Position numbers and translations under genes: made by a program. From contig NZ_JAHXBG010000010.1 of NCBI RefSeq assembly GCF_020103725.1, forward strand, positions 186,001 through 250,000: a stretch of 64,000 bases of DNA, written 5' to 3'. Position 1 is the first letter of the stretch. Every line of letters starts with the position of its first letter. Origin of the DNA: Hyalangium gracile (GTDB taxonomy: Bacteria; Myxococcota; Myxococcia; Myxococcales; Myxococcaceae). This document shows positions 51,149-61,487 of this stretch, piece by piece. Under the pieces are notes generated by a model. That model was not told where the DNA came from. It ran no database searches and was given only the letters and a program-made list of their open reading frames with translations.

Positions 51149-51541
51149 ATGCAGGAGCACTTCCGCGTCCTAGTCGTCGAGGACCACAACGACAGCCGGG
51201 AGATGCTGGAGGAGTTCCTCACCGAGGAGGGCTTCACCGTGGAGAGCGCCGTCAACGGGCTCCAGGCCCTGGAGCGGCTGCTGCGCCCGCCTCGGCCAGA
51301 CCTGGTGCTGCTGGACCTGATGATGCCGGTGATGACGGGGTGGGACCTGATGGCTCGGGTGGAAGAGGAGCCGTCGCTGTGGGGGCTGCCGGTCATCATC
51401 GTCTCGGGCGCGGGCGCCACGCGCCCCGTCCCGCGGCGCATCGTGGCGTCCATCCCCAAGCCGTTGGATCTGAACCTGCTGATGGACACCATCGCGCGCC
51501 TGCGCACGGGCCACGGCAGCGCGCTGGCCGCTGGCCGCTGA
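51149..51541 (+). CDS. Single-domain response regulator
   Basis: 130 aa, ATG at 51149 with GGGGGATGG upstream. Receiver: VLVVEDHNDSREML, acceptor Asp in LVLLDLMMPVMTG, Ser in IIVSGAG, Lys in ASIPKPLDL. No output domain. Its stop is 10 bp from that of the convergent histidine kinase at 51552, which makes that kinase a plausible though unproven partner. Confidence 0.93.
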   Translation: MQEHFRVLVVEDHNDSREMLEEFLTEEGFTVESAVNGLQALERLLRPPRPDLVLLDLMMPVMTGWDLMARVEEEPSLWGLPVIIVSGAGATRPVPRRIVASIPKPLDLNLLMDTIARLRTGHGSALAAGR

Positions 51542-51551
51542 AGCTTCCGCC

Positions 51552-53993
51552 TCAGGACGCCGTCAGCGCCGGGGCCGTCGCCGCCATCCGGGGCAGGATG
51601 ACCCGGAACGTCGTGCCCGCCTCCTCGGTGGACGTCACGTCGATGCGGCCGCCGTGCCCCTTCACCACCTGCTCGACGATGTAGAGGCCCAGCCCCAGCC
51701 CGCCTCCCTCGGAGGAGGCGCGCCGGAACGGATCGAACAGGTGCGGCAGCGCCTCGGCGGGGATGGGGCTGCCGCCGTTGTGCACCTCCAGCTCCACCAT
51801 CTCTCCGGTGTCCCGCAGCAGGAAGGAGATGGCCGTGTCCGGCGGGCTGTACTGGAGCGCGTTGCTGCCCAGGTTGGTCACCACCTGCAGCAGCCGGTCC
51901 GCGTCCCACTCGCCCTCGTAGCGCCCGGGCTCCGCGCGCAGGCGCACGTTGCGCTCGGGCCAGGCGGCCTCCAGCTCCTCCACGCCCTGGCGCAGCACCT
52001 GGCGCAGGTCTCCCGTCGTGCGGTGGATGGGGATGCCGCCGCCCAGGCGCCCGCGGGTGAAGTCCAGCAGCTCGGAGATCATCCGCTTCATCCGGTCGGT
52101 GGACTTGGCGACGCGGGCCGCGGCGCGCTGATCCCTCGCGGACAGCGTCTCGCTGTGCAGCAGCTGGGTGGCGGACAGGTGGATGGCGTTGAGCGGGTTG
52201 CGCAGGTCATGGCTGACGATGCCGATGAGCTTGCCTCCGAACTCGGCGGCCTGACGCGCGGCGGCCTCGGCGCGGCGCAGCGGCGTCACGTCCACGAACG
52301 TCACCACCGCCGCGACGATCTGCCCCACCCTGTCCCGGATGGGCGCGCTGGAGCAGAGCACGGCGGTGCGCTGACGATCGCTCCGGCGGAACTCGATCTC
52401 CTCGCCCTGCACCACCTCGCCGCCGAGCAGCGCGCGCGCCAGCGGCCACTCCTCGGGCGTATAGGGCCGGCCATCCAGGTGGAAGCCTGGATAGGCGGAG
52501 TACTCGCCGATGTGGTCGGCCTGGATGAAGGGCATGCCGAGGATGCTCTCCACCTGCCGGTTGCCCATCAGCATCCGCCCCGAGGGCGCCTCGGCGAGGA
52601 TGACGCCCGCCGGCAGCTGCTCCAGCAGCGTGGCCAGCCGGGAGCGCTCGGCCTCGATGTCGGCCAGCAGCCGCTGGCGCTCGAGCTCCGCCGTGCGCCG
52701 CTGGGTGATGTCCAGGAAGGTGCCCGCGCGCTGCACCACCTTGCCGGACGCGTCCCGCAGCGCCGTCACGTGCGTGAGGACGGGGAAGCGGCTGCCGTCC
52801 TTGCGCAGGTGCATGGACTCGTACTCGTGATGGAGCTTGGAGCTGGCCGCCGCCACGTGCCGCGCCAGCACCGCCCGGGACTCCGGGGCGAAGACGTCCA
52901 CCAGCGGCCGGCCGATCAGCTCCTCGCGCGTGTAGCCGTGCATCTGCGCGAACGCCGGGTTCACGTCCTCCAGCACGTTGTCCTCGGAGCGGGCCAGCGC
53001 CACGCCCACGCCCAGGTGGGTGAAGATCTCCTCCCACCGCTCGCGCTGCGACTCGCTCGCCCGCAGCCGGGCCATGGACTGCTCGGCCTGGGTCCGGGCC
53101 ACCTGCTCGCGGGCATGGGCCTGGGCCCGCGCAATCATCGAGGTGGTGCGCGCCGCCATGGTGCGCAGCAGCAGCCGATCCTCGTCGGAGAACTCGTGGC
53201 TGGCGCGGCTGCCCATGTGCACCACGCCGAGCACCTCGTCGCCCAGCAGCAGCGGCACGGCGTAGAGGGCGCGCAGGCCACTGCCGCGCAGCGCCTGACC
53301 GAGCACCCGGGCATCCGTCGCCGCGTCGCGCACGGTGGTGGGCTGGCGCGAGGAGGCCGCCTCGCCGGCGAAGCCCTCTCCGACGCGCACGCGGAAGTCC
53401 TCCTCGAAGGTGATGCCCACCGAGCTCTCCACCCGGAGGAAGTCCCCCTCTCGCACCAGCACGGTGACCGAGTCCACCACCGGAACGGTCTCCCGCAGCA
53501 CCTCGAGCAGGCGCGGCAGGAAGGCAGGAAGGTCCGGGCTGCCGATGGCCGCGGCGGAGATGCGGTCCAGCGCCTGCAGGGTGCGCTCCCGCACCTGCAT
53601 GTAGCGGCTGACCGAGGCGGCCACGGCCTCGTCCACCGCCTCGTGGAAGAGAGTCACCGCCTCCCACGTATCGGTGAAGCCCTGGGCCGCCCACAGCCGC
53701 AGCACGCACCGGCGCAGCAGCCGGTACTCGGTGACGACCTGCCGCAGATCGAACCCCTCGCCCAGCCGCTCCAGGGCATGCACATCCGGGACGGAGCCGA
53801 GCTCGGCGGCCACCTCCGTCTCCGGCGAGCGGGAGATCAGCCGCGCGATGCTGTCCAGCAGCAGCGGCAGGTGGTCTCGCAGCGCGGTGCGCGACAGGCT
53901 CTGCGCGGCGGGAAGCTGACGCACCTCCGCCTCCCATGCCTCCAGGATGGCGTCACGGTGGGTGCGGAAGAACTCTGCAAGTCGAGGTGCCAC
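51552..53993 (-). CDS. Sensor histidine kinase RsbRD_N-GAF-PAS-PAS-HisKA-HATPase
   Basis: 813 aa, GTG start at 53993 without a clear ribosome site. The N-terminal 150 residues match the RsbRD N-terminal type (FFRTHRDAILEAWEAEVRQL, then FDLRQVVTEYRLLRRCVL), a helical sensor otherwise known from stressosome-linked proteins. Then GAF (about 165-310), two PAS domains (about 325-450 and 465-580), HisKA with His595 in IGIVSHDLRNPLNAI, TRGRLGGGIPI, and HATPase (LGSNALQYSPPD, GGGLGLGLYIVEQVVKGHGG). Soluble with several potential inputs. The convergent single receiver at 51149 may be its target. Confidence 0.92.
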   Translation of the reverse strand: MAPRLAEFFRTHRDAILEAWEAEVRQLPAAQSLSRTALRDHLPLLLDSIARLISRSPETEVAAELGSVPDVHALERLGEGFDLRQVVTEYRLLRRCVLRLWAAQGFTDTWEAVTLFHEAVDEAVAASVSRYMQVRERTLQALDRISAAAIGSPDLPAFLPRLLEVLRETVPVVDSVTVLVREGDFLRVESSVGITFEEDFRVRVGEGFAGEAASSRQPTTVRDAATDARVLGQALRGSGLRALYAVPLLLGDEVLGVVHMGSRASHEFSDEDRLLLRTMAARTTSMIARAQAHAREQVARTQAEQSMARLRASESQRERWEEIFTHLGVGVALARSEDNVLEDVNPAFAQMHGYTREELIGRPLVDVFAPESRAVLARHVAAASSKLHHEYESMHLRKDGSRFPVLTHVTALRDASGKVVQRAGTFLDITQRRTAELERQRLLADIEAERSRLATLLEQLPAGVILAEAPSGRMLMGNRQVESILGMPFIQADHIGEYSAYPGFHLDGRPYTPEEWPLARALLGGEVVQGEEIEFRRSDRQRTAVLCSSAPIRDRVGQIVAAVVTFVDVTPLRRAEAAARQAAEFGGKLIGIVSHDLRNPLNAIHLSATQLLHSETLSARDQRAAARVAKSTDRMKRMISELLDFTRGRLGGGIPIHRTTGDLRQVLRQGVEELEAAWPERNVRLRAEPGRYEGEWDADRLLQVVTNLGSNALQYSPPDTAISFLLRDTGEMVELEVHNGGSPIPAEALPHLFDPFRRASSEGGGLGLGLYIVEQVVKGHGGRIDVTSTEEAGTTFRVILPRMAATAPALTAS

Positions 53994-54038: not shown

Positions 54039-54311
54039 TCAGGAAGTCGAGGCCGCCATCCCTTCATCCGGGCCCCTGAGCTCCAACAAATGGAGCAGCC
54101 CATGCTTCCAGTCCACGGCGTAGTGAACATGGAAGCCCGAGGGAAGCAAGCAGGCGCCAGCGTGTTCCGTTCCCGGTGTCTGGCTCTCCGTGCCGAGCAG
54201 CGGACCGGAGAAGATGGCGCCCAGTTCATGCAGGACGCGCTCGCGCACGGCCGGCTGGCAGGCGGAGAGCACTCCCACCGCCTGGGGCATGAACTGGAGT
54301 CGGAAGGCCAT
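54039..54311 (-). CDS. Small RelE/ParE-fold-like protein
   Basis: 90 aa from the ATG at 54311. The sequence has RelE-superfamily topology: strand FRLQFMP, helical pair (AVGVLSACQPAVRERVLHEL), then a beta-hairpin (GFHVHYAVDWKHGLLHLLEL). There is no antitoxin gene beside it. Instead the divergent gene 163 bp away encodes a receiver fused to what looks like the same fold. Typical RelE catalytic residues cannot be assigned with confidence, so activity on mRNA is uncertain. Confidence 0.6.
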   Translation of the reverse strand: MAFRLQFMPQAVGVLSACQPAVRERVLHELGAIFSGPLLGTESQTPGTEHAGACLLPSGFHVHYAVDWKHGLLHLLELRGPDEGMAASTS

Positions 54312-54473
54312 CGTGGCCTCCAAGCTGGCCACTCGCCGGGGAGAGAGCAAGCGGCCTGGGAGCCAGCCGAGGGCCGCCATCTGTCACTCAGGCAACGGTT
54401 GAGGGCCCCTGAGGGGCAGTTCCTCTCCTCCCAGGAGGAGGGTTCGGGGGGATGGCCCTAGGCTGGCGCTCTC

Positions 54474-55151
54474 ATGTCCGCTCCCCCGAGACTGCTCATC
54501 GTGGAGGATGATCCCAGCTGGCGGGAGGTGCTCCGGGTGACGGCCCGCTCGGAAGGGTGCGAAGTCGCCCTCGCCTCCGACGGGCTGGAGGCGCTCTCGT
54601 ATCTGAGCGACGCCGGGCGGCAGCGACCGAACCTCGTCGTGCTGGACCTGATGCTGCCCCGCCTGGACGGCTGGGAGCTGTACGGGCGGATGCGCACCCA
54701 TGAAACCCTGCGCGACATCCCGGTGCTGATGATGTCCGTGGCCAGCCAGAGCGTGACCCTGGGTGGCGTGGTGGGCTTCCTGCACAAGACGGCCACGCCG
54801 GAGCCCGCGCTGCTGGAGCTGCGGCAGCGTCTGCGCCGCTTCGAGCACTCCGGCCGGGTGCACGAGGAGCGCGGGCCCTATGGCCTGCGGATGTCGGAGG
54901 AGACGCTCCTCACGCTGAGCGCGCTGCCCTCGTCGCTGCACCACGCCGTGCGTCAGCACCTGCACCGGGCCGCGGAGTTGGCGGACGGTGCGCTCCCCCT
55001 GGCGTCCACCTGGCTCGTCGCGCTGCCGGGAGAGCCTCCCTCGCTGCTGGTGACGGTCCAGGGCATCCGGGTGGTGCTGGAGGTGGACGACGTGGCGCGC
55101 GAGCTGACCGCCACCACCGCCATCATCCCCACCTACCTGCCGCGCACGTAG
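54474..55151 (+). CDS. Response regulator with an unusual C-terminal domain resembling the neighbouring RelE-like protein
   Basis: 225 aa. Receiver in residues 1-125 (LLIVEDDPSWREVL, acceptor Asp in LVVLDLMLPRLDG, Ser in LMMSVAS, Lys in FLHKTATP). Residues 140-225 are not a known DNA-binding output domain. They read as a helical pair (LRMSEETLLTLSALPSSLHH, AVRQHLHRAAEL) followed by a hairpin (LLVTVQGIRVVLEVDD), aligning without gaps over 28 residues with the divergent small protein (shared LSA, V and L positions, then G..V and VD). This suggests a receiver-controlled RelE-like fold. Function not known. Confidence 0.75.
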   Translation: MSAPPRLLIVEDDPSWREVLRVTARSEGCEVALASDGLEALSYLSDAGRQRPNLVVLDLMLPRLDGWELYGRMRTHETLRDIPVLMMSVASQSVTLGGVVGFLHKTATPEPALLELRQRLRRFEHSGRVHEERGPYGLRMSEETLLTLSALPSSLHHAVRQHLHRAAELADGALPLASTWLVALPGEPPSLLVTVQGIRVVLEVDDVARELTATTAIIPTYLPRT

Positions 55152-55165
55152 CGCTCGCGCGCCGG

Positions 55166-58030
55166 CTACTGGACGGGGATGCGCCTCGCCGCGCCTTCCC
55201 TCAGGTCCACCCGAAGCAGCCGGCCCGTGGTGTCGAAGATGAGCAGCTCGCCCGCGCAGAAGCGGGCTCGCACGCGGGCCTCGCCCTCGAAGAGGAAGCG
55301 CGCCCGGGCCGGGCCTCCCTTCGCGGAGAGCTCCACCTGGTGGCCCTCGCCCGTCCTCATGCTCGTCAGCGACCACGGCGGCGAGACGAGGAAGCCGTCC
55401 ACCCGCTCCACCCTCGCCGTCTTCTCGTCCACAACCACCATCGGCAGGCCGTCTCCGTGGCGGCGCTCGGCGCGCGAGCGCAGCGTGGGGCCTCCGGGCA
55501 GGGCGTATGTCCACAGCTGCGGCTCGCGGCCAAAGGTGGCGAAGCGCAGCGAGTCCGCGTCCGCCTCCAGCGCCACCACCACGCCGCCCACCTGGGAGAC
55601 GCGCCAGAGCGCGCGCAGGCCGTCCGTGGCCAGCGCGTCCACCGCCATCACCGTGTCCGCCTCGGCGAGGAACCACAGGTTGCCGTCGTAGCTGGGGGCG
55701 AACGCATCCACCTTCGCGTCGCACCAGTGCCGGGCGCGCCGGGGGCCGGGCTCGATGACGGAGATGTGCTTGAGCTCCCCGCGCGGCGCGAGCGCCAGCA
55801 CCCGGTCCTCGTGCACCGACGGCACCAGCCAGAAGGCCGGCACGTCGAAGTGCGCCACGCGGGTGCCATCCGAGCGGATCAGCCGCACCCCGCCCTCTCC
55901 GAGCGCCAGCAGGATGCGCTGGCTCGACAGCGCCACCGCGTCGTGGATGGGGTAGGGGCCGGCCTCGGTCGCGGCGATCCGCTCGTGCAGCAGCGCGGCG
56001 CCTTGCTCCTCGGCCCAGTTGCGGGGACGGGGATCGGCGAAGGTCGGGAGATCGGCCCGCAGCGTGCCATCCCCCACGTCCCGGAGGAGCCGCGTGAGGA
56101 AGCTCGCGTCGATGCGCGTGTGGCCCGCCGCCCTGTCCCTGAGGAGCGCGCGGACCGCCGGGCCCACCAGGAGGGTGCGCGGCTCGGAGCGCTGCTCGGT
56201 GGCGAGCACCTCCGCGAAGGCGAGCCGCTCGGCCGCGCGGGGGTGGCTCTCGTCCTCGAGCAGCGCGAGCGCCGAGGCCTGCGCCGAGGCGAAGGCGTCC
56301 GGGAAGGCCAGCATCAGCCGCGCCAGGGCACGGGCGCCGCTCACGCCGCCGACCGTGGCGCCCTGCTCCAGCCAGGCCCGCGCCAGGGGATGCGCATCCT
56401 CCAGCGGCCACACCACCACCGCGGCGCGCAGGTAGTCCCCGGCCTCCGCGAGCGTCTCCGCCCAGAGCAGCCGCAGCGTGCGGGCCTCGGACGGGTGCGT
56501 GCGCTCCAGCCGCAGCACCGCGTCCGGGAAGGCGCCGCTGCGCCGGGCGATGGCCACCGCGCGCCGGATGTCCCTGGCCAGCAGCCACTGGCGCACCACC
56601 AGCCCGGGAGCCAGCCCGCGCCCCTCGGCCAGCTCGGCCGCGAGCCGCAGGCGCTCGTGCTTCTCGAGGAAGGACACGGCCTCCTCGTGCGCGCCGAGCA
56701 GCTCGGTGAGGACGAAGGCGGCCTCGTCGATGCGGCCCTCTCGCTCCAGGCGCTTGAAGGCGGCGCGGTAGCGCTCCTTGAGCGCGGAGTAGATCTCCTG
56801 GCCGCCACCGAAGATGGCCGCGCCTCCGCCCCGACGCGTCTGGATGGCGAGGCTCTCGCGCGGGCCCGGCAGCCCCAGGGCGATGCGCGCCTGCTCCGTC
56901 AGCTTTTCAGCACCCAGGGGGATGGCGTGGCGCAGCGCCTCGTCGAGGTTGCCCTTCTCGAACATCTCGAAGAGGCGCTGGACGTACTCCGCCTTGCGCT
57001 GTCCCAGCAGCGGGCCGAGCGGCGTGTTGCGCAGCAGCCACTCCGAGAGCCGCGACACGAGTCCCGGGCCTCGCGGCGGGGGCGGTGAGGAGGGCGGCGG
57101 AAGCGCCGGCTGGCTCGAGGCAGCGGAGGCCGGGAACAGGGACTGCCGCAGGAACCCGAACATGCGCGACAGCAGGGACGGTGCTCCGGGCCGCTGCTCG
57201 CGGACCTGCGCCTTCGCGGGCGCGCCCGAGGGCAGCTGGGGGATGGCCTCGGCGGTCGACGAGACGCGGGGGGCCAGCGCGCGCTGGAGCCAGGCCTTGA
57301 GCCGGCCCAGGGCCGAGGAGCTCGCGCCGGGGGCCGGCGTCGCCGAGGCGGGAGTGGCGCTGGCGACCTTCTGGGCCGTCGCGGGCGTGCCACGCTCCGC
57401 CCTCCACCACGCGCGCAGCCGATCCCACAGCGAGGCTGAGGCGCCCACGCTCGCGGCCTGCACCTTCTGGAGCGCCTGGGGGACGGGGCGGCCCTCCATG
57501 CGCGCCCGGACCGCCTCGGCCTCGGGACTGGCGGGAGGCACGCCGCCGAAGAGGCTGCGCGCGGGCGTCGCGACGGGCTCGAGCACCTTGATGGGCCTGG
57601 GGGGCGCTCCGAGCCCCTTCACGGTGACGGTGCTCCACTCGGAGACATCGAGCCACTCCGCCACATCCAATCGGCGAGAGGGCTCCGCGGAGAACACCTC
57701 CGCGCGTCCGGCTCGCACCAGCACGATCGAGCCGGGAGGAGGCGCCAGCTGCGCCCGCTCGGTGGCCGACAGAGGCGCGGAGAGCAGCACGCCATCCTCG
57801 AGGGTGAGCGGCAGCCCGGGCGCGGTGGCGCAGTTCACGGGCTGGACGCGCGGCAGCCGCAGGAGGAAGCCTCCCGCGATGGCGAAGACGGCCGTGCCCG
57901 GCGTCCACGTGGCGAGCACGCGCCCACGGGCCTCGCGCTCGCCCAGGAGCGAGGGATCGAACCAGAGGGCCGACGTCACCACGATGCCGCGGTGCAGGTG
58001 GAGCCGAGGCCTCACGGGGCGCGCGCTCAT
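55166..58030 (-). CDS. bpX6-like beta-propeller protein of a MoxR/vWA ternary system
   Basis: 954 aa, ATG at 58030 overlapping the preceding stop (ATGA). The first 150 residues form a beta-rich head (GIVVTSALWFDPSLLG, then PPGSIVLVRAGRAEVFSAEP) that I recall as the bpX6 type. A Pro/Ala-rich disordered linker follows to about residue 335, then alpha-helical repeats of TPR-like character (about 350-620), then a propeller-like C-terminal third (VVVDEKTARVERVDGFLVS, GELLIFDTTGRLLRVD). No catalytic motif. Last of four coupled genes headed by a MoxR ATPase; likely the effector-side or substrate-recognising part. Assignment rests on operon context plus recalled sequence. Confidence 0.65.
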   Translation of the reverse strand: MSARPVRPRLHLHRGIVVTSALWFDPSLLGEREARGRVLATWTPGTAVFAIAGGFLLRLPRVQPVNCATAPGLPLTLEDGVLLSAPLSATERAQLAPPPGSIVLVRAGRAEVFSAEPSRRLDVAEWLDVSEWSTVTVKGLGAPPRPIKVLEPVATPARSLFGGVPPASPEAEAVRARMEGRPVPQALQKVQAASVGASASLWDRLRAWWRAERGTPATAQKVASATPASATPAPGASSSALGRLKAWLQRALAPRVSSTAEAIPQLPSGAPAKAQVREQRPGAPSLLSRMFGFLRQSLFPASAASSQPALPPPSSPPPPRGPGLVSRLSEWLLRNTPLGPLLGQRKAEYVQRLFEMFEKGNLDEALRHAIPLGAEKLTEQARIALGLPGPRESLAIQTRRGGGAAIFGGGQEIYSALKERYRAAFKRLEREGRIDEAAFVLTELLGAHEEAVSFLEKHERLRLAAELAEGRGLAPGLVVRQWLLARDIRRAVAIARRSGAFPDAVLRLERTHPSEARTLRLLWAETLAEAGDYLRAAVVVWPLEDAHPLARAWLEQGATVGGVSGARALARLMLAFPDAFASAQASALALLEDESHPRAAERLAFAEVLATEQRSEPRTLLVGPAVRALLRDRAAGHTRIDASFLTRLLRDVGDGTLRADLPTFADPRPRNWAEEQGAALLHERIAATEAGPYPIHDAVALSSQRILLALGEGGVRLIRSDGTRVAHFDVPAFWLVPSVHEDRVLALAPRGELKHISVIEPGPRRARHWCDAKVDAFAPSYDGNLWFLAEADTVMAVDALATDGLRALWRVSQVGGVVVALEADADSLRFATFGREPQLWTYALPGGPTLRSRAERRHGDGLPMVVVDEKTARVERVDGFLVSPPWSLTSMRTGEGHQVELSAKGGPARARFLFEGEARVRARFCAGELLIFDTTGRLLRVDLREGAARRIPVQ

Positions 58031-59817
58031 GCCGCCTCCTCTGGAGCCGCGCGATACAGGGCCATGCCCTGCTGGAGGCTCCACACCACGAGCTCACCCT
58101 TCACCGTCAGCCACGCGAGCACGGGCAGCCCGTGGCTCACCGCCGCGTGTGCCACGTTCTCCGCGGCGCGCGTCAGCAGCTGCATCCTCGAGGGAGTCTG
58201 CAGCATGAAGGTCCGTCGGTCGGAGGCGAGCAGCACCAGCCCCGGCTCCTCCAGGGCCTGGGAGCTGTCGGCCACGCCCACCACCCGGTATTCCGGGCGG
58301 ACGTCGAACCGGACGTGGCCATGGGCGACCAGCACCTGCCAGGTGCCGGGGCGCTGGCGCAGCGCGAGCAGCCCCGCATCCGCGTGGCCCAGGGAGGCGG
58401 TGTGGCCGAAGTAGGCCTCGTCCTCGCCGGTGCCGAGCGGCAGGTGACGCTGGTGGTTGTCCTCCAGCAGGCCCAGCCACATGCCCTCCACGGAGGAGCC
58501 CTCCGTGGGCGTCATCACGAAGGCGGGCTTGCGCCGCACCTCGGCGAAGGCGCTCACGCGGCTCGCCAGCAGCGCGGGCCCCTGCTGGCTGACGACGAAG
58601 AGGCGGCCCTCGCTGTCACGCGCCAGCACGCGCTCGCGGTCGTCCTCGAGCACCGAGGTGGCCAGCCCTGGAAGGCGGTTCGGCGGAGGCGCGTCCGGCA
58701 GCAGCCCCTCGTAGCCGAGGTAGGGGATGCCGCGAGGCCTGCTCCCTCCGATGCCCCTCACGCCTCCATGAATCCAGAGGACCTTCTCGTCGCGGGTCAG
58801 CACGAGCAGCCCGCCATTGCGCCGCCAGCCGACGGCCACGAGCCGATGGTCCGCCGGGGGCTGGAAGCGCCGCGGCTTGGGGACGGTGGAGCGCGGCGAG
58901 TGGGGGATGGGCTGAGCGGCCACGCTTCCATCCGCGCGGATGAGGATGAGCCGCGTGCCATCCGCGGAGAAGAAGAACGCCTGGATGCGGGTGGCGTTGG
59001 ACAGGCGCACCGGCGTCGCGGCGCGAGCGGTGAAGGGCTCCCTCAGCAGGCGGACGCACTCCTCCGGCGGGGGCAGCTCCAGCGCCACGGAGGCGGGGGC
59101 ACGGGCCACTCGCCGCACCGAGACGCAGAGCGCGCGTGCGCCGGGAGCCATCCGCTCCTCCACCTCCACGCGGGACAGGCCCGCGGCCTCGGGGAGGCGG
59201 GCGAGCCGCGAGCTGCCCACGAGCCAGCAGTCCTCCGGGGCGGAGCCGAGCGCCAGCGCCTCGCGCCACCGGCTCACGTGCTCTCCCGTCACGGGCGTGA
59301 TGCTGCGAGCGGCGAGCCAGGACTGGACGGTGCCCGCGGTGATGGCGCTGAAGGGGCCTCGGTCCGGAGAGGACTGGAGCACGCCCCAGGCGAACTCGGC
59401 GCCGGCGGCCTCGGCGCGCCGCTGCAGCACCACGAGCAGCGCCAGGTGGGCGATGCGGGGAGCACCGAGCTGATCCGGCCCCGCGTCCAGGAGCACCACG
59501 GAGCGCCGCGAGCCCTGGGGCTGCTTGAAGGCGGGCTTGAGGAAGGCGTGCTCGCCGAAGGCCGCGCGGCGGATGAACTCGTCGGGGGACTCCAGGGCGT
59601 AGAGCCACTCGGTGAGCAGGAGCCGCTCATAGGGGCCGCGGCGGGTGAGCCCTTCGTAGCCCTGGGGCTCTCCGCCGTCCGTCTCGCCGCGAGGGCGGAG
59701 CGCGCCGATGGCCGCGGCCAGCCGGGCCACATGCGGGCCGAGGCTGAGCGCCAGGTCCTCCGGGAAGAGGGAGAGCTGCATCGCCCAGGGGCGCAGCACG
59801 GCGGGCAGGCTGCTCAC
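58027..59817 (-). CDS. vWA-like plus beta-propeller protein of the MoxR/bpX operon
   Basis: 596 aa from GTG 59817, overlapping the previous stop (GTGA). Residues 1-95 are helical (YERLLLTEWLYALESPDEF). Residues 107-230 look like a von Willebrand A fold (SVVLLDAGPDQLG, then IAHLALLVVLQRRAEAAGA) in which the metal-binding DxSxS is degenerate. From about 260 onward, repeated strands form a beta-propeller (FFFSADGTRLILIRADGSVA, LVAVGWRRNGGLLVLTRDEK). In MoxR-vWA-bpX ternary systems the vWA protein links the ATPase to its propeller partner; here both parts seem fused. Without a structure search the vWA call is moderate. Confidence 0.6.
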   Translation of the reverse strand: MSSLPAVLRPWAMQLSLFPEDLALSLGPHVARLAAAIGALRPRGETDGGEPQGYEGLTRRGPYERLLLTEWLYALESPDEFIRRAAFGEHAFLKPAFKQPQGSRRSVVLLDAGPDQLGAPRIAHLALLVVLQRRAEAAGAEFAWGVLQSSPDRGPFSAITAGTVQSWLAARSITPVTGEHVSRWREALALGSAPEDCWLVGSSRLARLPEAAGLSRVEVEERMAPGARALCVSVRRVARAPASVALELPPPEECVRLLREPFTARAATPVRLSNATRIQAFFFSADGTRLILIRADGSVAAQPIPHSPRSTVPKPRRFQPPADHRLVAVGWRRNGGLLVLTRDEKVLWIHGGVRGIGGSRPRGIPYLGYEGLLPDAPPPNRLPGLATSVLEDDRERVLARDSEGRLFVVSQQGPALLASRVSAFAEVRRKPAFVMTPTEGSSVEGMWLGLLEDNHQRHLPLGTGEDEAYFGHTASLGHADAGLLALRQRPGTWQVLVAHGHVRFDVRPEYRVVGVADSSQALEEPGLVLLASDRRTFMLQTPSRMQLLTRAAENVAHAAVSHGLPVLAWLTVKGELVVWSLQQGMALYRAAPEEAA

Positions 59818-60311
59818 GGGGAGCCCTCCGCGGCCTTCAGCCACGCGGCGAGCGTCTCACGGGCCACCGGCCGCGCGGCCCCCACGGGCACCAGGAACCC
59901 CGAGCGCGGGAGCACGGCGAGCGGTGCCCCGTCCGAGGCGTGGGCCACCAGGGCGCGCTCGAGCAGGGCGGGGGCGACCTCGGGCGCGAGCGCGCACGGA
60001 AGCAGCAGCGAGGGCGCGGCCCCATCCCTCCCGAGGTACACGGCCCCATCGACCCACGGCAGCGAGTGCGCCTCTCCCAGGAGGACGAGGAGGTCCGAGC
60101 CGGCCACGCCGCTCCAGGCGCCCAGCCGCGCGTCGTCCGCCGCGAGCGCCCTGCGAGCGAGCGCGAGCGCCACGGCCCCGACGCCCGCGACGGCGAGGGC
60201 GGGCAGCGGCTCCATCCGGGGGCTCCACGTCACCGGGAGTCGCGCGGGGGCTTGCGATGAGGCACGAGCGCTCAAGGGAACCCGACCTTGATTGAACCGA
60301 GGCAAGCGCAC
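59814..60311 (-). CDS. bpX5-like small protein of the MoxR/bpX operon
   Basis: 165 aa, GTG at 60311, three bases after the MoxR stop. A basic N-terminus, an Ala/Leu-rich segment (about residues 36-55) that could be a helix or weak membrane anchor, then a compact alpha/beta domain (DLLVLLGEAHSLPWVDGAVY, LGRDGAAPSLLLPCALAPEV). This resembles, from memory, the bpX5 adaptor of MoxR-vWA ternary systems. Position between the ATPase and the vWA-like gene agrees. Confidence 0.6.
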   Translation of the reverse strand: MRLPRFNQGRVPLSARASSQAPARLPVTWSPRMEPLPALAVAGVGAVALALARRALAADDARLGAWSGVAGSDLLVLLGEAHSLPWVDGAVYLGRDGAAPSLLLPCALAPEVAPALLERALVAHASDGAPLAVLPRSGFLVPVGAARPVARETLAAWLKAAEGSP

Positions 60312-60314
60312 GCC

Positions 60315-61487
60315 TCACGCCTGGGCCACGGCGGCAGGGACGGCTGGGGCGTCAGTCTCGAGCACCATGCGGATCTCCTCGCGCAGGGCCTGGAGCTCCG
60401 TCGGCAGGGCCTCGGGCGCGAACCCGGCGTCCATCTCTCGCACCACCCCCTCCAGCTTGAGCCTCCACGCGGGCAGCTCCTCGGCGCCCTCGCCGGGCCG
60501 TCCCGCCAGTACCTCGCGCCCCGCCCGAGCGATGCGCTGCGCCCGCGCCAGGGGCCCCGCGCTCGCCTCCAGCGCCGCCGCCGCGAGCGCCGGGTTCTCC
60601 GTGGCGGCCAGCAGCTCGCGCAGCACCTCGCGCGCCAGCGCCTGCCCCTCCTTCGTGGGCACCGCGTAGATGAGCGGCCACAGGTCTGCCACTCCCGGCG
60701 TCCTGCGCCCCGCCAGCGCCGCCGCCGCGGCGATGAGCCGCTGCACCTTCACCGCGCGCCGGTCGGACAGCCCGATGCCCGAGGCTCGCAGCGTGCGCAG
60801 CGCATGCGCCAGGTGAGGCCGCACCGGTGCCAGGTCCGACTCCTGCGCGGCGCGCGCCAGCACATCCAGCGCCTGCAGCGAGGCCACCCGGGCCTCGCCC
60901 TCGCGCCACAGCGAGGCACCGCCCGCGAGCAGCTCCTCCAGCCGCGGGTCCGGCACGGGCTCCACGAAGATGCGCGCCAGGAAGCGGTCCGCGAAGGCCG
61001 CCAGGGACTCCTCCTCGGGCAGGCCGTTGGAGGCGCCCACACATACCCGTAAGGGAACCTTCATCCGGGTATGGCCGCGCCGGAAGGTGCGCTCATTGAG
61101 TACCCCGAGCAGCGTGTTGAGGATGGCGGTGGAGCCGAGGAACACCTCATCGAGGAAGGCCACCTCCGCCTCGGGCAGCATGCCGGTCGTCTCGGTCTCC
61201 ACGGTGCCCTCGCGCAGCTTGCGCAGGTCCACCGGGCCGAAGATCTCCGACGGCTCGGTGAAGCGGCCGAGCAGGTACTCGAAGTAGCTGCCACCCAGGG
61301 CCCGCGCGGTGCGGCGGACGGCCTCGCTCTTGGCGGTGCCCGGCGGGCCGATGACGAGCAGGTGCTCGCCGGCGACGGCGGACAGCGCCACCAGCTCCAC
61401 CATGGCCTCGCGCTCCACCAGGCCCCGGCCGGCATCGGCGAGGGCATCCCGGAGTGAGGCGGCGGCATCTTCGAAGGTCAGGGACAT
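60315..61487 (-). CDS. MoxR-family AAA+ ATPase
   Basis: 390 aa, ATG at 61487. Walker A IGPPGTAKSEAVR, Walker B VAFLDEVFLG, sensor 1 VGASNGLPEE and the MoxR/RavA pattern GRFTEPSEIFGPVD. The C-terminal 120 residues are a helical lid and tail. MoxR ATPases are chaperones that work with vWA proteins to remodel or activate partners. First gene of a four-gene operon; the divergent gene on its left flank is 102 bp away, and no promoter motif is obvious. Confidence 0.93.
   Translation of the reverse strand: MSLTFEDAAASLRDALADAGRGLVEREAMVELVALSAVAGEHLLVIGPPGTAKSEAVRRTARALGGSYFEYLLGRFTEPSEIFGPVDLRKLREGTVETETTGMLPEAEVAFLDEVFLGSTAILNTLLGVLNERTFRRGHTRMKVPLRVCVGASNGLPEEESLAAFADRFLARIFVEPVPDPRLEELLAGGASLWREGEARVASLQALDVLARAAQESDLAPVRPHLAHALRTLRASGIGLSDRRAVKVQRLIAAAAALAGRRTPGVADLWPLIYAVPTKEGQALAREVLRELLAATENPALAAAALEASAGPLARAQRIARAGREVLAGRPGEGAEELPAWRLKLEGVVREMDAGFAPEALPTELQALREEIRMVLETDAPAVPAAVAQA

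Follow-up and report, generated by a model that had tools for sequence, protein, structure and literature searches.

A phospho-receiver joined to a predicted, degenerate RelE/ParE-fold domain and encoded beside an antitoxin-less RelE-like protein in Hyalangium gracile

Regulatory domains followed in the same chain by a RelE-fold domain are known from the CARF-RelE proteins, in which Cami1 (PDB 8phb, 8phj) is gated by cyclic tetra-adenylate through its CARF domain. These are the closest described relatives, by design, of a protein encoded in the window analysed here, a stretch of 64,000 nucleotides from contig NZ_JAHXBG010000010.1 of H. gracile. The latter carries a phospho-receiver and no CARF domain, and the residues that serve catalysis in RelE are largely lost from it. 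It likewise resembles response regulators with non-DNA-binding outputs, since a canonical receiver with a conserved phosphorylation site precedes a separate output domain, but a RelE/ParE-fold output is undescribed for such regulators in the literature searched. The likeness of this output domain, and of a 90-residue protein encoded divergently from it (hereafter the solo protein), to the RelE/ParE (BECR-fold) type II toxins lies in the predicted fold and in a weak but consistent profile similarity, the best PDB matches being RelE of E. coli, M. tuberculosis, T. thermophilus and P. horikoshii. Unlike type II toxins, however, the solo/fused pair is without an antitoxin gene, lacks a conserved catalytic set and shows no C-terminal helix in the models; both members stay below the Pfam cut-offs and one of them is fused to a receiver. 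The genes bpMoxR, bpX5 and bpX6 of the MoxR-vWA-beta-propeller ternary systems (Kaur et al. 2020, PMC7159879) adjoin the pair here too, although RelE-like proteins, receivers and histidine kinases go unmentioned in the section of that paper devoted to the subsystem. The combination of a receiver with a RelE-like output, proposed as new in the preliminary description of this DNA, indeed appears to be unreported: none was found in the literature searched, and the main text of a 2025 survey of multidomain RelE/ParE proteins mentions neither receivers nor response regulators (PMC11980606).

The nearest match to the locus that bears a species name comes from Hyalangium versicolor. The genes of the locus follow each other in the order protein kinase, single-domain receiver, histidine kinase, solo, response regulator, bpX6, propeller protein, bpX5 and bpMoxR. 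The response regulator (fused) gene is an open frame of 225 amino acids (54474-55151, plus strand) and the solo gene one of 90 (54039-54311, minus strand), both reading away from a common intergenic region of 162 bp (54312-54473). The solo gene is followed, some 45 bp further on and on the same strand, by a histidine kinase gene (51552-53993, minus strand), whose RsbRD_N-GAF-PAS-PAS-HisKA-HATPase architecture was assigned with Pfam and whose position is supported by synteny; convergent with it is the gene of the single-domain receiver (51149-51541, plus strand; Pfam Response_reg, E 4.1e-19), which is kept in place in most related loci. Three loci from some Myxococcus-type genomes hold an extra single-domain receiver gene between the solo and the histidine kinase genes. 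On the other side, Pfam matches identify in 55166-61487 a MoxR-vWA-beta-propeller ternary conflict system in one cluster, all of it on the minus strand: bpX6 (55166-58084, E 2.2e-40), convergent with the response regulator gene; a probable vWA/beta-propeller component (58027-59844), in which the propeller part was recognised (Gmad1 propeller, E 6.4e-5) and the vWA domain was not recognised by Pfam; bpX5 (59814-60311, E 2.6e-25); and the AAA+ ATPase bpMoxR (60315-61487, E 1.3e-83), with the P-loop GPPGTAKS. None of the seven proteins scanned with the PADLOC models was matched.

Both the solo and the fused gene are real and conserved across genera. In most orthologous pairs dN was lower than dS in the receiver, the C-terminal domain and the solo protein, indicating mostly purifying selection on the two genes. 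Among the 96 genomes of the taxonomic family that were searched, 61 encode the solo protein and 45 the fused domain; every one of these 45 also has the solo gene, and in the 44 genomes where both stand on one contig they invariably occupy opposite strands, with the domains 0.5-2 kb apart. The fused gene is nonetheless not essential to either the solo gene or the kinase, since 16 of the 61 solo genomes are without the fusion and several of them keep the kinase together with the solo gene. In one genome (G076:C1:390614-390868) a TAG stop interrupts the fused gene while the solo gene is intact. In the 31 loci compared, the intergenic region measures 145-223 bp and is in general poorly alignable, but holds a conserved element, TGTCNNNCAGSCRACG (54382-54397, plus strand), which is kept across genera and is a candidate promoter or operator; in its 18-base form this element is found at a single place in the 11.7-Mb genome.

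The receiver half of the fused protein (residues 1-122; 54474-54839) was delimited by Pfam, VIA, conservation among orthologues and DSSP of the AlphaFold model. Its residues 8-108 match Response_reg (PF00072) with an E of 2.4e-17 and 63.5 bits, against a cut-off of 30.2, and its comparison with RR468 in VIA gives a Z of 18.6. The active site comprises the acidic pair D12 and D13, the phosphoacceptor D58, S88 and K105; the first four are invariant among the 29 orthologues and K105 is found in at least 90% of them. Judged by these residues, the receiver is complete and should be phosphorylatable. Helix alpha4 is absent from the model (AlphaFold, DSSP) and only 17 residues separate S88 from K105, and the lack of this helix suggests that the receiver presents an unusual output face. 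We also asked whether the receiver half arose, in the manner of a 'Rosetta stone', from the single-domain receiver encoded nearby (51149-51541) and found no support for this origin, since that receiver ranks only about fourteenth among the matches in the genome. A short variable linker of 12 residues (123-134; 54840-54875) follows the receiver; it changes fast, often with high dN/dS in orthologous pairs, is poorly conserved, and coincides with low model confidence around residues 121-136.

The remaining third of the 225-residue protein had no family assigned. The AlphaFold model of the whole chain, built with 29 orthologues, has a mean pLDDT of 86.9, with most of the C-terminal domain near 90, and resolves in this domain (residues 135-225 and the stop codon; 54876-55151, plus strand) the elements E137-140, H142-149, H153-170, E181-184, E190-195, E198-205 and E210-217. 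The resulting E-H-H-E-E-E-E topology of residues 137-217 is the element order of RelE/ParE. Searches with the whole fused model, both Foldseek and VIA, returned lists filled by receiver structures, and the assignment draws instead on profiles. Family A3, made up of solitary myxobacterial RelE-like proteins of about 104 residues, matches the output domain with a probability of 84, an E of 7.7e-6 and 32% identity, and all nine of its members match Pfam ParE_toxin, the best with an E of 4e-4, below the curated cut-off. With an extended profile (A5), to which distant antitoxin-less RelE-like proteins were added, the best 8 of 11 matches among all PDB sequences were RelE-family toxins, with E values from 5e-4. 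The gathering cut-off of ParE_toxin (PF05016, 23 bits) was reached by none of these proteins: the solo protein and the output domain have no match to the family and the bridging relatives score at most about 21 bits. Taken together, model and profiles make it very probable that the output half adopts a RelE/ParE fold. That the segment might be a disordered linker is ruled out by the confident folded model and by its conservation in orthologues. The domain has been retained in five genera, where R160, H162, R165 and E168 are invariant or nearly so, and in some orthologous pairs it changes somewhat faster than the receiver.

The solo protein has no Pfam or NCBIfam match at E values up to 10. Its AlphaFold model, built with 43 homologues (mean pLDDT 76.5), shows an E-H-H-E-E-E topology, and Foldseek places RelE toxins at the top of its matches (1wmi, E 2.1e-4; 4fxe, E 3.5e-4). 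VIA-align 2 superimposes it on M. tuberculosis RelE1 with a Z of 9.0 and an rmsd of 2.8 over 76 aligned residues, and most of the 50 VIA rows listed are RelE/ParE-type toxins. E. coli RelE likewise comes first when the profile of the solo family (A2) is run against all PDB sequences (E 0.007). Model and profile thus concur in assigning the solo protein to the RelE/ParE fold group. Neither of the two AlphaFold models, that of the solo or that of the fused protein, contains the C-terminal helix of RelE.

That the C-terminal segment of the receiver protein is a folded domain resembling the solo protein had been the core of the preliminary description, and the models and profiles bear this out, placing both in the RelE/ParE fold group. 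The helical pair noted there is predicted in either protein as two helices followed by a beta sheet, and the G..V...VD pattern is real, falling at G59, V62 and V66-D67 of the solo protein and at G197, V200 and V204-D205 of the receiver protein, with both glycines invariant in their families. The gapless alignment offered as evidence, in contrast, does not stand, since the best local and best ungapped scores of the solo protein against residues 134-225 do not exceed those of shuffled sequence (p 0.29 and 0.20) and lie off the homologous register. Direct profile-profile comparison of the solo protein with the output domain gave a probability of 0.9% and an E of 0.063. Their homology is visible in the sequence profiles only through bridging families of antitoxin-less myxobacterial RelE-like proteins: A3 reaches the solo family with a probability of 63 (E 7e-5) and A5 with one of 96.5 (E 7e-10), a score that none of 60 column shuffles attained. 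The solo protein is not likely to be the ancestor of the fused domain, as had been suggested, because it is not its closest relative; other solitary myxobacterial RelE-like proteins are closer (32% identity and E 7.7e-6, against E 0.063). A role as partner is plausible, given that all 45 fusion genomes carry the solo gene, adjacent wherever contigs allow.

For the question of activity we take the catalytic positions of RelE to be K52, K54, R61, R81 and Y87 (E. coli numbering). Alignment to E. coli RelE sets against the first four of these S190, L192, R199 and P219 of the receiver protein, and against Y87 no residue at all; R199, the sole equivalent kept, is arginine in 24 of the 29 orthologues and glutamine in the other 5. 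The solo protein has G52, C54 and H61 at the positions of K52, K54 and R61, and no conserved basic residue later on. The strongest polar conservation of the output domain falls instead on helix alpha2 (H157, R160, H162, R165 and E168). No small antitoxin-like gene is found among the neighbours of the solo gene, which are the kinase at 45 bp and the divergent response regulator at 162 bp. An effect on RNA or ribosomes, which the preliminary description had proposed to test, is no more than an analogy, as the receiver protein differs from RelE at four of the five catalytic positions and the solo protein is without the conserved set. Since the catalytic residues are largely missing and there is no antitoxin gene, a 'phospho-controlled ribonuclease' is unsupported, and we infer that a binding function is the better guess for the output domain. 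Yet absent catalytic residues do not exclude a toxic activity, because the ParE-type gyrase inhibitors are likewise without those of RelE (PMC11980606).

The reading that we favour, at about an even chance of being right, is that the fused protein is a response regulator with a degenerate RelE/ParE-fold output domain that has a non-catalytic binding role under the control of phosphorylation. A histidine kinase, most simply that encoded beside the solo gene, would phosphorylate D58, and this would change how the receiver, through its signalling face without alpha4, touches the RelE-fold domain, so that a binding surface becomes exposed or hidden. The best candidate for such a surface is the conserved helix HAVRxHLxRAAEL, which could take a protein or a nucleic-acid target without cutting RNA. 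The solo protein may act in the same pathway, either as co-ligand or as competitor for the same target.

Several other readings have to be weighed against this one. The RelE fold suggested by the model and by profile A5 would also suit a phospho-gated inhibitor of translation, in which phosphorylation of the receiver would let the RelE-fold domain into the ribosomal A site to block or cleave mRNA, as a two-component counterpart of Cami1; VIA matches the solo model to, among others, the apo and ribosome-bound chains of Cami1 (Z 7.9 and 7.7), and the joining of a C-terminal RelE-family domain to CARF is well established (PMC4012209). We nevertheless find it quite unlikely, given that the receiver protein does not conserve K52, K54, R81 and Y87, that the solo protein is without the conserved basic set, that the most conserved polar residues sit on alpha2 and not on the sheet face that forms the active site of RelE, and that the RelE C-terminal helix is absent in both models. 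The same want of a recognised catalytic site, along with the faster evolution of the output domain relative to the receiver in several pairs, could be taken to mean that the domain is a mere dimerisation device or structural cap and that the receiver alone is functional. This is very unlikely in view of the retention of the domain in five genera with its (nearly) invariant R160, H162, R165 and E168, and of the constant presence of a solo protein of the same fold in genomes with the fusion. Least credible of all, and barely so, is a phosphorylation-controlled output that acts on DNA gyrase in the manner of ParE or binds DNA. In its favour, the bridging proteins come close to Pfam ParE_toxin and the shared promoter region contains a conserved DNA element; but both RelE-type and ParE-type members are found in that family (PMC11980606), the predictions show no DNA-binding fold and the element may be a plain promoter.

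The adjoining ternary system brings in a further alternative, namely that the solo protein is a component of it, perhaps the missing effector, with the receiver-RelE protein as its phospho-controlled antagonist or competitor. The ternary systems are described, in section 22 of the paper that defines them (PMC7159879), as lacking conventional effector modules and having extra linked genes without assignment, and the solo gene has a suitable position: a bpX6 match lies within 4.2 kb of it and on the same strand in 42 genomes, and in the genomes examined that lack the response regulator and have a linked bpX6 (six loci) it comes directly after the bpX6 gene. The association is loose, however, with 10 genomes having the solo gene without bpX6, 9 showing the reverse and 4 having the two 20-55 kb apart; plain shared synteny would give the same picture, and the catalytic residues are missing. 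We therefore regard this alternative as unlikely.

The favoured reading of a phospho-controlled, non-catalytic regulator can be set in a wider context. A phylum-wide search with profile A5 retrieved many RelE-like genes, and among the loci fetched, where same-frame receivers were sought with a home-made receiver profile, no second receiver-RelE fusion was seen. One antitoxin-less RelE-like family is followed 150-280 bp downstream and on the same strand by a REC-LuxR response regulator gene (NarL/FixJ type) in 9 of 11 loci from four genera, which is convincing as conserved synteny, and three singletons, two in one genus and one in another, show a similar pairing. In a control of 40 random loci a receiver was found within 1.5 kb in four. 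Counted per family, the excess of receivers near RelE-like genes is only moderate: at a distance of up to 300 bp, a receiver is found in about 4-5 of 19 families and in 2 of 40 random loci. In all ten A3 loci read, from two other genera, a serine/threonine kinase gene stands close by on the strand of the A3 gene.

It is tempting to speculate that in myxobacteria RelE/ParE-fold toxins have given rise to a class of signalling proteins that have no antitoxin and act together with phospho-receivers, in trans where RelE-like and response regulator genes are paired and in a single chain in Hyalangium and its relatives, thereby placing a toxin-derived target, for instance the ribosome or a defence complex, under two-component control; this generalisation is tentative and we consider it doubtful rather than probable. 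Antitoxin-less RelE-like families below the Pfam thresholds are probably unannotated, and their repeated occurrence next to receivers, to kinases and to a conflict system argues, in a way that can be tested, for regarding them as signalling parts; the solo protein is a candidate for one of the linked genes without assignment in the beta-propeller ternary systems. If true, a toxin-derived fold would join the known outputs of two-component systems as a phosphorylation-controlled counterpart to CARF-RelE, and the H. gracile pair would exemplify the re-use of a toxin fold after the loss of its antitoxin and catalytic site.
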